A DNA stretch of 30,590 nucleotides from a virus: the IMG/VR virus record IMGVR_UViG_3300006810_000237, positions 1 through 30,590 of that record; one strand, written 5' to 3'. The notes under the pieces were generated by a model. That model saw nothing but the letters and a program-made list of their open reading frames with translations. It did no database searches and was not told the DNA's origin. Positions 6,867-15,534 of this stretch are shown here, piece after piece (the first letter of the stretch is position 1; every line of letters starts with the position of its first letter). Made by a program: the position numbers and the translations under genes.

Positions 6867-8438
6867 ATGTCGGAAACGCAAATAAACAATGAAGATATAT
6901 CTGAGGGATTGTACCCAACCGTATTTAAAAAAATAGATTCAACAGATATTCAGATTAATCCATTTCAAGCACATAAAACATTTACTGTTTATAGTGGAAG
7001 TGCTACTAGTAGTATGTTACCACTACAAGGAGTTTATATCGATCCAACATATTTACCAGCATTGGAAACGACGTTGGTATATAATGACGCATCAAATATT
7101 GACGGCAGTTTACAAAGTGTTACTTATTTCTCAGTTAATCATTTATTTTATAAGAATAAAAATCAACCGTATTATAATTTTGGTCAAACCAATTTAAATT
7201 TAACTAAAAAATTCTTATATGAAACTGCTAGTATATTTTCATTTCCACAACTTAAAATAGGCGAAGGTATAAAATTAGCATCATTTGAATTAACAGTGCC
7301 AAATACGGCATCATTTACTTCAGATCGATATGGTAATATAAATGATAGCACATTTGACACCGCATCAATTATCGACCAATTGAAACTGTATGAGGGGTTC
7401 AATGAATATTTTGATACTACACGTATTAATTATGAGTCTAGCGGAATAACATATGTTGATGGAGTTGTTGCATCTAATGGTGATACATTGCCAATGGGAT
7501 TAGCTGCAAAGTTTAATGGTGATGGATATATAGAAACTGATCTTGCTGGAGAATATGATAGAGATTCAGACTATGCAATTTCCATGTTCATTAGTGGATC
7601 TAATACCGGTGCCGACAATCAATTAATAATTACAAAAGCGACTAGCTCTATAACTCCACAATATCCATTTAGAATTGAATTAAGTGGAAGCAATCAAATT
7701 GAATTTAGCGCACAAGGATCTCCAATATTCAGATCAATGATAACTAGTTCAGCAGATGTCTCATCGTCATGGACTCATGTTGTTTGTCAGAAAACAGGTA
7801 GTTCAATTCAAATGTATGTCGATGGTACACTTCATGCGTCAGAAACAAATTCATTGTTTAATAATAGTAATCATCCACTTAGTGCTAGTTCTAGAATTGA
7901 TAATTTAGAAAATCTAAGTATTGGTGGTTATGGTGTTGCTGATTCTAATTTGCAAGGACAATTAGATGAAATTCGAATATACAATAAAGCATTAACAGCA
8001 ACAGAGGTTGGGTATTTAGCAGATCGAACAGAAGGCGGTACATTTTCACAAACACCAGTAGTTGGTAATATTTTTGAAAAACAAGGTTTAGGAGTAATAT
8101 CCACAATAGATTATCGATATCAAAACATATTAAATTATCCGTTTACTGCTTCATATAAAAGCACAGTAACAATTCATGAATTAGGCGTAACTGCAAAATT
8201 AGATCAAGGTGATTTTAATATGTCTACCAATGTTACGTTAACTAAAGATGATAATCAAACATATCGAGGATTTGTTTCTGGTAGTGATTTTTCTCCGTAT
8301 ATAACAAGTATTGGATTATATAATGCAGAAGGACAATTATTAGCAATTGGTAAATTAGCACAACCAATTAAAAAAAGAAATGACGTTGATGTTAATTTCT
8401 TGATACGAATTGATTTAGACAAGAACATAATAAAATGA
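6867..8438 (+). CDS. LamG-domain tail fibre/virion protein
   Basis: A 523-aa protein. Residues about 210-388 form a clear laminin-G-like (concanavalin A-like) jelly roll: LAAKFNGDGYIET near the start, SSWTHVVCQKTGSSIQMYVDG in the middle (the W-x-HV...I..YVDG pattern), and GQLDEIRIYNKALTATEV at the end. This fold commonly binds glycans, which suggests host-surface recognition. The N-terminal 200 residues are beta-rich and unassigned. The C-terminal 45 residues (YITSIGLYN...LLAIGKL) match those of the preceding 428-aa protein. The stop (TGA) overlaps the start of the kinase-like gene by four bases. The structural assignment is firm. The receptor-binding role is an inference. Confidence 0.8.
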   Translation: MSETQINNEDISEGLYPTVFKKIDSTDIQINPFQAHKTFTVYSGSATSSMLPLQGVYIDPTYLPALETTLVYNDASNIDGSLQSVTYFSVNHLFYKNKNQPYYNFGQTNLNLTKKFLYETASIFSFPQLKIGEGIKLASFELTVPNTASFTSDRYGNINDSTFDTASIIDQLKLYEGFNEYFDTTRINYESSGITYVDGVVASNGDTLPMGLAAKFNGDGYIETDLAGEYDRDSDYAISMFISGSNTGADNQLIITKATSSITPQYPFRIELSGSNQIEFSAQGSPIFRSMITSSADVSSSWTHVVCQKTGSSIQMYVDGTLHASETNSLFNNSNHPLSASSRIDNLENLSIGGYGVADSNLQGQLDEIRIYNKALTATEVGYLADRTEGGTFSQTPVVGNIFEKQGLGVISTIDYRYQNILNYPFTASYKSTVTIHELGVTAKLDQGDFNMSTNVTLTKDDNQTYRGFVSGSDFSPYITSIGLYNAEGQLLAIGKLAQPIKKRNDVDVNFLIRIDLDKNIIK

Positions 8439-10787: not shown

Positions 10788-11270
10788 ATGAAACGAAATC
10801 ATTGGCATACTGCTGGAAGTAAAAAACGACAAGCAGCTTATAAATACGGTTATAAATCAGGATTAGAATTAACTGTAGCAGAACAAATAAAATCTAATGC
10901 ATATGAAGTTTGTTATGAAACTAAAACGCTTCATTATACGGTACCTGAATCAAAACATAAATATACTCCAGATTTTGTGTTTACTAAAAAGAACGGTGAA
11001 TTAATGTACATTGAAACAAAAGGTCGATGGACTGCAGTTGATCGCAAAAAAATGAAACATGTATTAAAGTCAAATCCAGATATTGATATAAGAATGGTGT
11101 TTCAAAATCCTAATCAAAAGATATCAAAAGCCAGTAAAACAACATATGAAGCATATGCAATCAAGCTAGGTATTCCTAATGTAGCAAAAAAAGAAATACC
11201 AGTAGAATGGATGCAAGAATGCTTGAAACCAGGTGAAGAAGCACAAGATCCGAAACGTTTTTTCAAATAA
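10788..11270 (+). CDS. T7-type endonuclease I (Holliday-junction resolvase)
   Basis: A 160-aa protein matching the phage T7 gp3 / endonuclease I family, which cleaves branched DNA during replication and packaging. The catalytic PD-(D/E)xK-like site is visible: GYKSGLE with the first Glu (residue 27), YTPDF with the metal-binding Asp, and IETKG with the second Glu and the Lys, matching T7 E20, D55, E65 and K67. The family-typical FQNPNQKISKASKTTY block and a late EIPVEW motif are also present. The length is close to the T7 protein (149 aa). It starts a replication/recombination island and is followed by primase and Mre11-Rad50. T4 uses gp49 for this job, so a T7-type resolvase in a T4-like gene set is a functional substitution. 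The leader AAAACAAGTTACATG resembles that of the bS21 gene. Confidence 0.9.
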   Translation: MKRNHWHTAGSKKRQAAYKYGYKSGLELTVAEQIKSNAYEVCYETKTLHYTVPESKHKYTPDFVFTKKNGELMYIETKGRWTAVDRKKMKHVLKSNPDIDIRMVFQNPNQKISKASKTTYEAYAIKLGIPNVAKKEIPVEWMQECLKPGEEAQDPKRFFK

Positions 11271-11456: not shown

Positions 11457-12023
11457 ATGCAAAATCTCAAGTTATTACAATTACTAGAATCAGTACTAGG
11501 AAAAGGTAAATCAACATCAGGTAATAACGTTGCATTCTTCTCTCCATTTACTTCACATTATAAACCTAAATTAGAAATAGACATCAACACAACGAGTGAC
11601 GGTCAAAATGCTTGGCATTGTTGGATATCTGATAAAAAGGGAAGAAGTATCAATAGTTTATTCAAACAAATGAACTTGGGTAAACAATATTTCGAACAAT
11701 TATCTAAAATAATACAATCAGCAAAATACAAGAATTTTGATACAGAAGAGAAAGTTGTTGAGGTAATTGCATTACCAGAAGATTATAGACCATTATGGAA
11801 ACCAAAGAAAACTCCAGATTTTAGAAATGCGATGTCATATCTTAAAAAACGAGGAGTAACAATATTTGATATATTAAAATATAGAATTGGATATTGTGAA
11901 TCTGGAGAATATAGTGGCAAAATTATTATTCCTAGTTATGACTGTACAGGTCAATTAAATTATTTTGTAAGTAGAGCTTATTATAAAGCAGATAAATACA
12001 AACATAAAAATCCTAAAATATAA
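11457..12023 (+). CDS. DNA primase, N-terminal part (reading frame broken at 12021)
   Basis: The first 188 codons of a DnaG/T4 gp61-type primase. The N-terminal segment FFSPFTSHYKPKLEI...WHCWISDKKGRSINSLF aligns with the zinc-binding domain of phage primases (xCPFCxHhKPKL...WhCWvCxkkG), but three of the four usual Cys/His ligands appear as Ser or Thr. Residues 125-180 (SYLKKRGVTIFDILKYRIGYC...GKIIIPSYDCTGQLNYFVSRAYY) match the start of the catalytic core. The frame stops at TAA 12021-12023 right after NPKI. The expected continuation, KDIIGF...EGSFDAI, follows at once in another frame. The gene is therefore frameshifted, either truly (decay or programmed shift) or through a sequence error. There is no ribosome site before the ATG. 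Confidence 0.75.
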   Translation: MQNLKLLQLLESVLGKGKSTSGNNVAFFSPFTSHYKPKLEIDINTTSDGQNAWHCWISDKKGRSINSLFKQMNLGKQYFEQLSKIIQSAKYKNFDTEEKVVEVIALPEDYRPLWKPKKTPDFRNAMSYLKKRGVTIFDILKYRIGYCESGEYSGKIIIPSYDCTGQLNYFVSRAYYKADKYKHKNPKI

Positions 12024-12400
12024 AAGACATTATTGGATTTGATTTAACTATTAATTGGGAAGAGCCAATTATATTATGTGAAGGATCGTTTGATGCAATT
12101 GCAATCAAAAGAAATGCAATACCATTATTTGGTAAAATAATTCAACCAAATTTGCAAAAGAAAATTATTGAAAAGCGGGTTAAAGACATTTACATATGTT
12201 TAGATGAAGACGCAATTCGAAATGCATTATCAATCGCAGAAAAATTTATGGGCGAAGGATTAAATGTATACTTTATAGAACTGAAAGAACAAGATGCATC
12301 GGATTTAGGATTCCATCGCATCACTGAAATTATTGAAAATACCGGAGTCATGACATTTGAAAAACTAATGCAACTCCAAATGGGATTATTATGGAAATAA
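12020..12400 (+). CDS. DNA primase, C-terminal Toprim part (shifted frame)
   Basis: This frame continues the primase after the break. It reads IKDIIGFDLTINWEEPIILC, then EGSFDAIAIKRNA, where EG..DAI is the Toprim catalytic Glu motif. Further on comes DIYICLDEDA, the Toprim DxD metal site, and then EGLNVYFIELKEQDASDLG, with the usual closing acidic segment. No ATG, GTG or TTG precedes the Toprim motif in this frame after the stop at 12014-12016 (the first TTG is 12152, past the catalytic Glu), so independent translation of an intact Toprim domain is unlikely. With a -1 shift at 12020 the joined product would be about 314 aa, near T4 gp61 (342 aa). It overlaps the next gene by ten bases. Confidence 0.75.
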   Translation: MKDIIGFDLTINWEEPIILCEGSFDAIAIKRNAIPLFGKIIQPNLQKKIIEKRVKDIYICLDEDAIRNALSIAEKFMGEGLNVYFIELKEQDASDLGFHRITEIIENTGVMTFEKLMQLQMGLLWK

Positions 12401-15400
12401 CAAAAATACCAAGTAAAATACAGAATGCTGATAAAATTTATCATATTTCTGATGTTCATATTCGTACGTTAAAAAGGCATCGGGAATATAGACACGTTTT
12501 TGAAAACATGTTTAATCACATCAATCAAACTAAAACACAAAATAGTATTGCAGTGGTTACTGGGGACATTGTGCATAGCAAATTAGATATGTCGCCTGAA
12601 TTGATACGAATGCTTACTGACTTTTTTCGTGGATTTAATATTCCTACAATTGTAATTTTAGGTAACCATGACATGAACTTAAACAATCTATATCGTGAAG
12701 ATGCATTGTCTCCGGTATTAGATATGATAAAAAATGATAATATTGTTTTTATTAAAGATAATGGTGTATTTGATTTTGCTGGCATAACATGTAATCATAT
12801 GGCAGTAGATGTAGAACCAGCACAATATGTTAATGGTAATGACATTGAAACTGACAACATAAAGATTGCATTACATCATGGTGCAGTTCATAATGCAAAA
12901 ACTGACATTGGTTATGAAATATCAAATGAACATGTAACTACTGAATTATTTAATGGTCATGATATGACATTGTTAGGCGATATACATAAGCCAGCTCAAT
13001 TCTTAACAGACACTATTGCATATCCTGGATCATTGATACAACAAAATCATGGAGAAGCATTAGATCATGGAATATTAATTTGGGACGTTAAAACTCAAAA
13101 GGCTGATTTTGTAGAAATACATAATGACTATGGATATGTTACCATAGAAACCGATGGACCTAATATAATTAAGTCGCCACATCGTATGCCCAATAAACCT
13201 CGTATCAGAATCAAGTTTAACGAAACTAGTGCGGCTGATATGAAAAAACTTGTTACGACAATACGTAAAAAATATAATGTACAAGACATAACAATACAAA
13301 GAACCATTGCAGCAAAACACGAAACAAATGCAAATTCAATTACAATTGGCAATGTCCGAGATGTTGAGTATCAAAATACATTATTAACTGATTTTATTAA
13401 CGTTAAGTTCCCAACAGCTACTCCAGACGAATTAGACGCAATACGACATATTAACAGATCCATTAATTCAAAATTACCTGCCGTAGAATCTGTAAGGCAT
13501 ATAACATGGCATCCGGTTTCATTTGAATTCGAAAATATGTTTTCATATGGAAAAGGTAATCGAATTGATTTTAATAAAATGAGTGATGTCTGTGGTTTAT
13601 TTGCATCAAATACTAGTGGTAAATCATCTTTATTAGACGCAATAACATATACTATATTTGATAAATGTAGTAAAACTAGTAAAGCACATGAAGTATTGAA
13701 TAATAAACAAAGTTCGTTTAAAGGTACTTTTAAATTTAAAATGAATGATGTGTTATATACTATTGAACGTGTTGGTAATAAAAAGAAAGATAATCATGTT
13801 AAAGTAGATGTTAATTTTTATACCGAAACTGAAAACTTAAATGGTGATGAACGTAGTGATACTAATAAAAGTATTCGCCGTTATCTGGGAACATATAATG
13901 ATTTTATATTAACTGCATTTTCTTTGCAAGCAGATAATAATAACTTTATAGAAAAATCACAACGAGAAAGAAAAGATCTATTATCACAGTTTTTAGATAT
14001 AACAGTATTTGAACAATTATATCATTTAGCTACTGATGAAATTAAAGAAACGGCTGGTAGATTAAAAGCATTCAAGAAAACAGATTTTGCTGAAACTATT
14101 ACATCAGCTGACATTGTTATTAAAGATAATAGCAAACTAATAAAAGATACAAATAAAAAAGAATCAACAAATCAGGATTTAAGAAATAAACTACAAGAAG
14201 ATATATTGCAATTAATAGAAACTAAACAACCTACTAGTTATGAAGGCGATGATATTAGTATATTACAAGAAACAGAAACTGATTTAATAGATAAAATAGA
14301 AACATTACAAACAACAATTGACGAAACTGAACAAATAATAACAAAATATCAAGACAAAATTGATAAAATATCTGAAACAGTTAAAACACAAAATTATAAT
14401 GTACAAGACTTAAAAGATAAAGTTCAGCAATTAACAGACACTGAATTCCAATTGGATAATTTACAGGATGATCTGAAAAAACAACAAAGGATTGTAAATG
14501 ATAAGCAAACAAAAATTGAACATCTCGAAACACACGAATATGATCCAGATTGTAAATACTGTGTCTCTAACGTTTTTGTGCAAGACGCAATACAAGCAAA
14601 GAACGAGATTAATCAAGATAGAGAAATATTAAATAATATTCAGAATAATATTGATGCAAAAAATACAATAATAGACAAGTTAACTGTAGCTAAAACTGAT
14701 CTTACAAATTATAATAATTCGATTGATAATATTAAGTTATATAAAAATAAAATAGAACTACATGAACTACAACTTCAAATTCATGAAAATGATCTTCAAA
14801 CAAAAGAATCAGAATTAGAAAATAACATAGAACGACAAGAGCTATTTAAACGTAATGAGTCTGCTATACAACATAATATTGAAATAGATAATAAAATTAC
14901 TACATGTAAGTCCGAAATTGACAATGTAACAAAAAAGATTAAAAAATTACAAGATCAGATAAAAACGAATCATGGAGAAATTGAGGTAGCTAAAACAAAA
15001 AGAAAAACTGCATTAGAACAATTAGAAATATACCGACAATTAGAAATTGAATATAAAGCATATGAATACTATTTGAAATCTGTAAAACGTGATGGTATTC
15101 CATATGACTTAATATCCAAAGCAATACCAAAAATTGAAACTGAAATAAATAATGTTTTAAATCAAGTAGTTGATTTTAATATGGTTATGAATACTGATGG
15201 TAAAAATATTAACGGATATATTATATATGATGAAGATAACTATTGGCCATTAGAATTAACGAGTGGTATGGAGCGATTTATATCTAGTTTAGCAATTAGA
15301 ATTGCACTTATCAATGTGTCTGCATTACCTAGACCTAATTTTATTGCAATCGACGAAGGTTGGGGAAGTTTAGATGCCGAGCATATTGCATCAGTTGCAA

Positions 15401-15534
15401 ATCTATTTGATTATTTTAGAACTAAATTTGATTTTTCAATTATTATATCACACGTTGATACTATGCGTGATATGGTAGACAACCTAATTGAAGTAAACAA
15501 AACTGACGGATATAGCCAGATTCTACACATTTGA
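12391..15534 (+). CDS. Single-chain Mre11-Rad50 (gp47-gp46) recombination nuclease
   Basis: A 1047-aa fusion of the two subunits that T4 and cells make as separate proteins. Residues 15-310 form the Mre11/SbcD/gp47 phosphoesterase, with DVH (21-23), GD (58-59), GNHD (91-94), HHG (162-164) and GDIHKP (196-201). Residues 370-1047 form Rad50/SbcC/gp46: FENMFSYGKGNRIDF, Walker A ASNTSGKS (405-412, with Ala for the first Gly), long coiled coils (about 570-715 and 735-895), a zinc hook CKYC (721-724), the ABC signature LTSGMERF (956-963), Walker B with D-loop IAIDEGWGSLD (985-995) and H-loop H1021. Residues 311-369 link the halves. The complex resects DNA ends for recombination-dependent replication and host DNA breakdown. 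All catalytic motifs look intact. The start is inside the primase end (ATGGAAATAA). Confidence 0.93.
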   Translation: MEITKIPSKIQNADKIYHISDVHIRTLKRHREYRHVFENMFNHINQTKTQNSIAVVTGDIVHSKLDMSPELIRMLTDFFRGFNIPTIVILGNHDMNLNNLYREDALSPVLDMIKNDNIVFIKDNGVFDFAGITCNHMAVDVEPAQYVNGNDIETDNIKIALHHGAVHNAKTDIGYEISNEHVTTELFNGHDMTLLGDIHKPAQFLTDTIAYPGSLIQQNHGEALDHGILIWDVKTQKADFVEIHNDYGYVTIETDGPNIIKSPHRMPNKPRIRIKFNETSAADMKKLVTTIRKKYNVQDITIQRTIAAKHETNANSITIGNVRDVEYQNTLLTDFINVKFPTATPDELDAIRHINRSINSKLPAVESVRHITWHPVSFEFENMFSYGKGNRIDFNKMSDVCGLFASNTSGKSSLLDAITYTIFDKCSKTSKAHEVLNNKQSSFKGTFKFKMNDVLYTIERVGNKKKDNHVKVDVNFYTETENLNGDERSDTNKSIRRYLGTYNDFILTAFSLQADNNNFIEKSQRERKDLLSQFLDITVFEQLYHLATDEIKETAGRLKAFKKTDFAETITSADIVIKDNSKLIKDTNKKESTNQDLRNKLQEDILQLIETKQPTSYEGDDISILQETETDLIDKIETLQTTIDETEQIITKYQDKIDKISETVKTQNYNVQDLKDKVQQLTDTEFQLDNLQDDLKKQQRIVNDKQTKIEHLETHEYDPDCKYCVSNVFVQDAIQAKNEINQDREILNNIQNNIDAKNTIIDKLTVAKTDLTNYNNSIDNIKLYKNKIELHELQLQIHENDLQTKESELENNIERQELFKRNESAIQHNIEIDNKITTCKSEIDNVTKKIKKLQDQIKTNHGEIEVAKTKRKTALEQLEIYRQLEIEYKAYEYYLKSVKRDGIPYDLISKAIPKIETEINNVLNQVVDFNMVMNTDGKNINGYIIYDEDNYWPLELTSGMERFISSLAIRIALINVSALPRPNFIAIDEGWGSLDAEHIASVANLFDYFRTKFDFSIIISHVDTMRDMVDNLIEVNKTDGYSQILHI

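Follow-up and report, generated by a model that had tools for sequence, protein, structure and literature searches.

A single open reading frame joins Mre11 and Rad50 domains

Cellular Mre11 and Rad50, bacterial SbcD and SbcC, and gp47 and gp46 of phage T4 are each made as two separate chains. The locus described here raises the question of whether one viral gene encodes both partners as a single polypeptide and, if it does, whether the arrangement is genuine and whether it is new. The window, by which we mean the whole 30,590-base virus contig that was analysed, contains a frame of 1047 codons on the plus strand at 12391-15534 that is open throughout, with zero internal stops. An earlier note had read this frame as a fusion of Mre11 and Rad50, and the domain search that it proposed bears this out. 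The 1047-aa protein matches the Pfam families Metallophos (residues 15-201) and AAA_23 (residues 380-610), both above the curated cut-off, and its PHROGs matches are phrog_100 (SbcD, residues 2-341) and phrog_77 (SbcC, residues 310-1044). The frame is thus a fused Mre11(SbcD/gp47)-Rad50(SbcC/gp46) gene. It resembles the two-chain systems in its domains, its motifs and its domain order (gene 47 precedes gene 46 in T4), and it differs from them in being one frame. We modeled the whole chain with AlphaFold2 using an alignment of 35 relatives (mean pLDDT 82.7, pTM 0.46), and Foldseek matched the resulting fusion model to the Rad50/SbcC structures 7zr1, 7yzp and 3av0. With a whole-chain pTM of 0.46, the packing of the domains is not readable from this model. 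A model of the N-terminal 372 residues has a pLDDT of 86.9 and a pTM of 0.76.

A single frame of this kind could be an assembly or sequencing artefact in which genes 47 and 46 were joined through a lost stop or an indel, and the interrupted frame of the primase-like gene just upstream indicates that errors in the contig are possible. However, the near-identical independent contigs L002 and L003 differ from the window at 10-15 bases across the gene and at 1 base each in 13300-13520, the interval in which the earlier note had asked for a check, and the frame is intact there in both. The gene length of 3141 bases is common to L002-L006 and L053, and the same uninterrupted frame is found in 114 distinct full-length relatives with identities down to 28%, nearly all of which share one connector length (see below). 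The fusion is also carried by the complete genome of an isolated phage, Mel-JY01. We therefore reject a frameshift artefact as vanishingly improbable. The exceptions to the single intact frame are L028 and L060/L163 (one contig), which are frameshifted or interrupted copies, and L082, L161 and L201, which are split at one site. Compared with relatives of ~60-92% identity, dN/dS over junction residues 310-372 is 0.02-0.19, which is the range of the catalytic domains; higher values occur only in the coils. Purifying selection runs through the Mre11-Rad50 junction.

The nuclease half has every Mre11 motif, with a substitution in motif V

The Mre11-type nuclease domain spans residues 14-245 (12430-13125, plus strand), as indicated by the Pfam match, by motif conservation among 43 representatives of the family and by fold. 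Its motifs are D21xH23, GD59IVH62, GNHD (91-94), H163 and GD197IH199, and motifs I-V are thus all present in a domain that passes the Pfam cut-off. Invariant among the 43 representatives are G58, D59, H62, GNHD 91-94, H163, G196, D197 and H199, while D21, H23 and the hook cysteine Cys721 are each altered or absent in one or two. The earlier statement that all phosphoesterase motifs are present is correct in that every position is there, but motif V (12976-12987, plus strand) reads GDIH in all 43, with Asp where GHxH has its first His. A capping domain follows at residues 246-305 (13126-13305, plus strand), placed by its AlphaFold secondary structure and by its position in the domain order of Mre11 set out in PMC13402864, and a Rad50-binding helix-loop-helix lies beyond it. 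The N-terminal model matches the Mre11/SbcD structures 3qg5, 3tho and 7dog with Foldseek E-values of about 1e-12 to 1e-13.

The junction is a folded Mre11 segment followed by an 11-residue connector

The earlier note had described a link of roughly 60 residues between the two domains. This region does join them, but most of it is predicted to be the folded C-terminal part of Mre11. The capping domain gives way to a variable stretch at residues 306-318 (13306-13344, plus strand) that is predicted to be disordered (pLDDT < 50 at 307-317 or 308-320; entropy 2.72 bits), and this stretch of ~13 residues is the counterpart of the flexible linker that precedes the Rad50-binding domain. The helix-loop-helix itself (helices 325-339 and 345-360; 13363-13470, plus strand) was placed from the AlphaFold model and from fold matches since a profile comparison with a single T4 gp47 sequence gave a probability of 9.8, too weak to position it. 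The top Foldseek matches of the N-terminal model are Thermotoga Mre11 chains taken from Mre11:Rad50 complexes, 3qg5 and 3tho. The first Rad50 strand of the model begins at residue 372, which leaves residues 361-371 (13471-13503, plus strand) as the true inter-subunit connector. Given the AlphaFold layout and these Mre11 matches, the modeled link is an ordinary Mre11 C-terminal part plus 11 residues. The connector is 11 residues long in 112 of 114 distinct relatives. In the Thermotoga complex, the separate chains are ~28 A apart at this point, from which Yoshida et al. (2011, PMC3175470) predicted that a connector of 9-12 residues would be needed. The window protein, with Mre11 first, one polypeptide and a connector within that range, has the features of the fusion class that they described.

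The Rad50 half is a complete ABC ATPase with a zinc hook

The N-terminal half of the Rad50 ATPase (13504-13995, plus strand), which contains Walker A (13603-13626) and Q-loop residue Q513, was identified by Pfam, conservation and fold match. It is followed by a predicted ascending coiled coil (14002-14532, plus strand; AlphaFold helices 538-714), the CxxC zinc hook CKYC at residues 721-724 (14551-14562, plus strand) and a predicted descending coiled coil (14572-15084, plus strand; AlphaFold helices 728-898). The C-terminal half of the ATPase (15097-15531, plus strand; conservation, alignment and fold match) carries the TSGME signature (15259-15273), Walker B (15340-15357), the D-loop and the H-loop. 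The protein therefore has both the bipartite ABC ATPase and the antiparallel coiled coil with zinc hook of Rad50/SbcC, as the earlier note had proposed. The hook cysteines are conserved in 42 (C721) and 43 (C724) of the 43 representatives, and N407, GKS 410-412, Q513, SGME 958-961, D988, E989, D995, S1020 and H1021 are invariant. Walker A reads ASNTSGKS (residues 405-412), and the Ala to which the earlier note drew attention is indeed there. It is not remarkable, however, since it is a family trait (42 of 43) and this position is Lys in the separate Rad50s of Bacillus and Listeria phages. The ABC signature, by contrast with the usual SGGE, is SGME (15262-15273), in which Met for the second Gly is invariant in the window family. 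SGME also occurs in some jumbo-phage fusions (pT24 and LR756501).

The fused class is known and is widespread in T4-type phages

Fusions of Mre11 and Rad50 were described by Yoshida, Claverie and Ogata in 2011 in Mimivirus (R555) and Bacillus phage 0305phi8-36, as well as in C. kluyveri plasmids, a Deferribacter megaplasmid, other Firmicutes and six eukaryotes (PMC3175470). From the GOS and BIOME metagenomes, these authors argued that aquatic viruses, probably phages, are rich in R555-like fusions; GOS scaffolds with the fusion had phage primases and T7 gp3-type endonucleases as neighbours, and the phage branch was confirmed for only a few long metagenomic sequences (PMC3175470). To judge from the published description, the window protein shares with R555 the order of Mre11 and Rad50 in one chain, the helix-loop-helix and the short connector, and its GDxxH (GDIVH) and GDxH (GDIH) substitutions correspond to the His ending motif II and the Asp for His206 in R555 (PMC3175470). 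It differs in length (1047 versus 1351 aa) and in belonging to a T4-type phage and not a giant virus. Like the aquatic scaffolds, the window has a primase and a T7 gp3-like endonuclease next to the fusion. Thus, the fusion type is already known, and the window gene belongs to the fused class of R555 and aquatic viral metagenomes. What this analysis adds is the phage branch seen at full length, with a near-constant connector and a conserved helix pair at the junction.

Fusions of this kind are common both in aquatic phages and among giant viruses, and the phage branch is large. Scanning IMG/VR with the 1047-aa protein gave 144 relatives, of which the best 80 were kept, and a scan with the family alignment raised the number of matching stretches to at least 578. 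Isolated phages with the fusion are Mel-JY01, pT24, PTm1 and PAU. All 12 fused-gene records that were checked for a T4-type portal gene have one, as does the window, and on this sequence evidence we read the window as T4-type phage DNA. The earlier view that these proteins are always separate chains does not survive the 2011 report, and the novelty, which the earlier note said would be removed if many known T4-like phages had the same fusion, falls with the number of relatives found here. A megablast search of the gene flank against phages gave no match.

Among these isolates, the closest is Microcystis phage Mel-JY01, whose protein WWT39521 has the same fusion but is divergent in sequence (41% identical, with 99% of the length aligned). 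A primase-like gene and an endonuclease also lie just upstream of it; that endonuclease is annotated as GIY-YIG. Across the complete genome of Mel-JY01, SbcD matches once and SbcC gives a single strong match, in each case within the fused ORF. WWT39521 is annotated as an "AAA domain containing protein", with no mention of the nuclease half. The jumbo phages pT24, PTm1, PTm5 and PAU (annotated "metallo-phosphoesterase", PHROG 35725) and the 735-kb phage LR756501 likewise have the nuclease and the Rad50 ATPase in one frame, but their fusions are longer (1200-1320 aa) and only ~23-25% identical where matched. PAU keeps GHIH where the window family has GDIH, and T4 has GHFH and SEGE in place of GDIH and SGME. 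Reading TAG as Gln proved unneeded for LR756501, as its ORF is open under table 11.

The best viral fold matches are the fusions of Tupanvirus (E=1.5e-74), Harvfovirus, Yasminevirus, Catovirus, Megavirus and other Mimiviridae-type viruses, followed by those of phages pT24 and PTm1. A tree was built from 17 fused proteins and from seven separate pairs of phages or E. coli. All of the fused sequences in it, those of the jumbo phages and LR756501 included, form one clade with the window family on one side of a 100/100 branch. Given that the branches of this tree are long and that the fusions in the broad 2011 survey fell into more than one group (PMC3175470), these sequences allow a single origin of the fusion within phages rather than demonstrate it. 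Plasmid sequences gave partial matches only and no fused match. In cellular genomes, the fusion was matched over its full or nearly full length three times, each time on a short MAG contig (L178, L179 and L180, labelled Nitrosopelagicus, Chloroflexi and a bacterium); these are probably phage contigs binned with their hosts.

Some relatives have the gene in two parts

In three distant lineages, L161 (2-4025), L082 (2947-7172) and L201 (3313-6547), the fused gene is represented by two ORFs. Their identities are 60-78%, 36% and 26-33%, respectively, and the split point is the same in all three, after motif V (GDIHK) and before PGS.IQQN, within the nuclease domain. An endonuclease-like ORF lies between the halves in L161 and L082 (phrog_559 and phrog_9084, HNH/homing; phrog_1271, HNH), while L201 has no ORF there. 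The N-terminal halves in L161 and L082 end in similar short tails, EYLKNGW and KYLNSGW. In L048 and L148, the same loop carries an in-frame insertion. Rfam gave no group I intron at the gathering score in the LR756508 insert and no intron in L082; splicing of the split copies is possible. Phage genes split by homing endonucleases can still work, as for nrdA of Aeh1 (PMC2988022). We consider it an evenly balanced proposition that Mre11 and Rad50 were fused in a large lineage of T4-type phages, which then retained a near-fixed 11-residue connector, and that some descendants later re-split the gene between motif V and the next strand, twice beside homing-endonuclease-like ORFs. If this were true, the boundary between the Mre11 and Rad50 chains would be movable without loss of function, and cis docking and chain topology would be directly testable.

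Proposed function

The product of the gene is very likely a T4-type phage nuclease-ATPase in which Mre11 and Rad50 (SbcD and SbcC, or gp47 and gp46 of T4) make up a single chain, and which acts in end resection as a covalently linked M2R2 complex. By analogy with the T4 and cellular complexes, two identical fused chains would form the usual M2R2 head, in which each helix-loop-helix, joined through the 11-residue connector to the strand that opens the Rad50 head of the same chain, would dock on the base of the coil. ATP would bring the Rad50 heads together over the nuclease, and its hydrolysis would part them so that the Mre11 site could cut DNA ends; the zinc hook and the coils would serve to bridge DNA or to tether it. 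During infection, the fusion may act in the resection that recombination-dependent replication and repair require, alongside a primase and a T7-type endonuclease I that would resolve branches. As one intact chain, it gives 1:1 expression of the two partners by construction, as the earlier note had pointed out, and it probably also favors docking of the helix-loop-helix in cis. A natural single-chain complex of ~1050 aa could suit structural work, as well as tests of Mre11 docking on its own Rad50. Since the window is a 30.6-kb fragment, a separate second copy of Mre11/Rad50 elsewhere in the genome is possible.

The Asp for His in motif V and the Met for Gly in the signature could alter activity. 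Asp is a usual metal ligand. Both substitutions are invariant in the family, and they might mark a fused homolog repurposed for a structural or regulatory role without resection activity; roles other than that of the canonical complex have been suggested for fused cellular copies (PMC3175470). We consider such repurposing quite unlikely. All of the other metal-ligand and ATPase positions are conserved, which a non-catalytic role would leave unexplained. Furthermore, the fused version is the only one reported for Mimivirus and for the Bacillus phage (PMC3175470), and the one credible SbcD/SbcC set of Mel-JY01 is the fused ORF. An active single-chain nuclease-ATPase accordingly remains our preferred reading.

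Neighbouring genes and minor observations

The endonuclease upstream of the fusion is a phage endonuclease I of the T7 gp3 family (10788-11270, plus strand; PF05367, E=2.5e-34). Between the two lies the primase-like gene (11457-12400, plus strand), the last bases of which, about ten, overlap the start of the fusion; given this overlap, the expression of the two genes is probably coupled. The primase-like gene is interrupted in the window, where its C-terminal part runs on in another frame; the close contigs L004 and L005 have intact copies of the gene. A structural-protein ORF at 6867-8438 has a Laminin_G_3/concanavalin-like lectin domain (PF13385, E=1.1e-17), which makes it a candidate host-binding protein. 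In the 484-kb phage LR756508.1, matches to the T4-type portal fall in three separate pieces of one 1387-aa open frame (146009-149425), as if this portal gene carried inteins.
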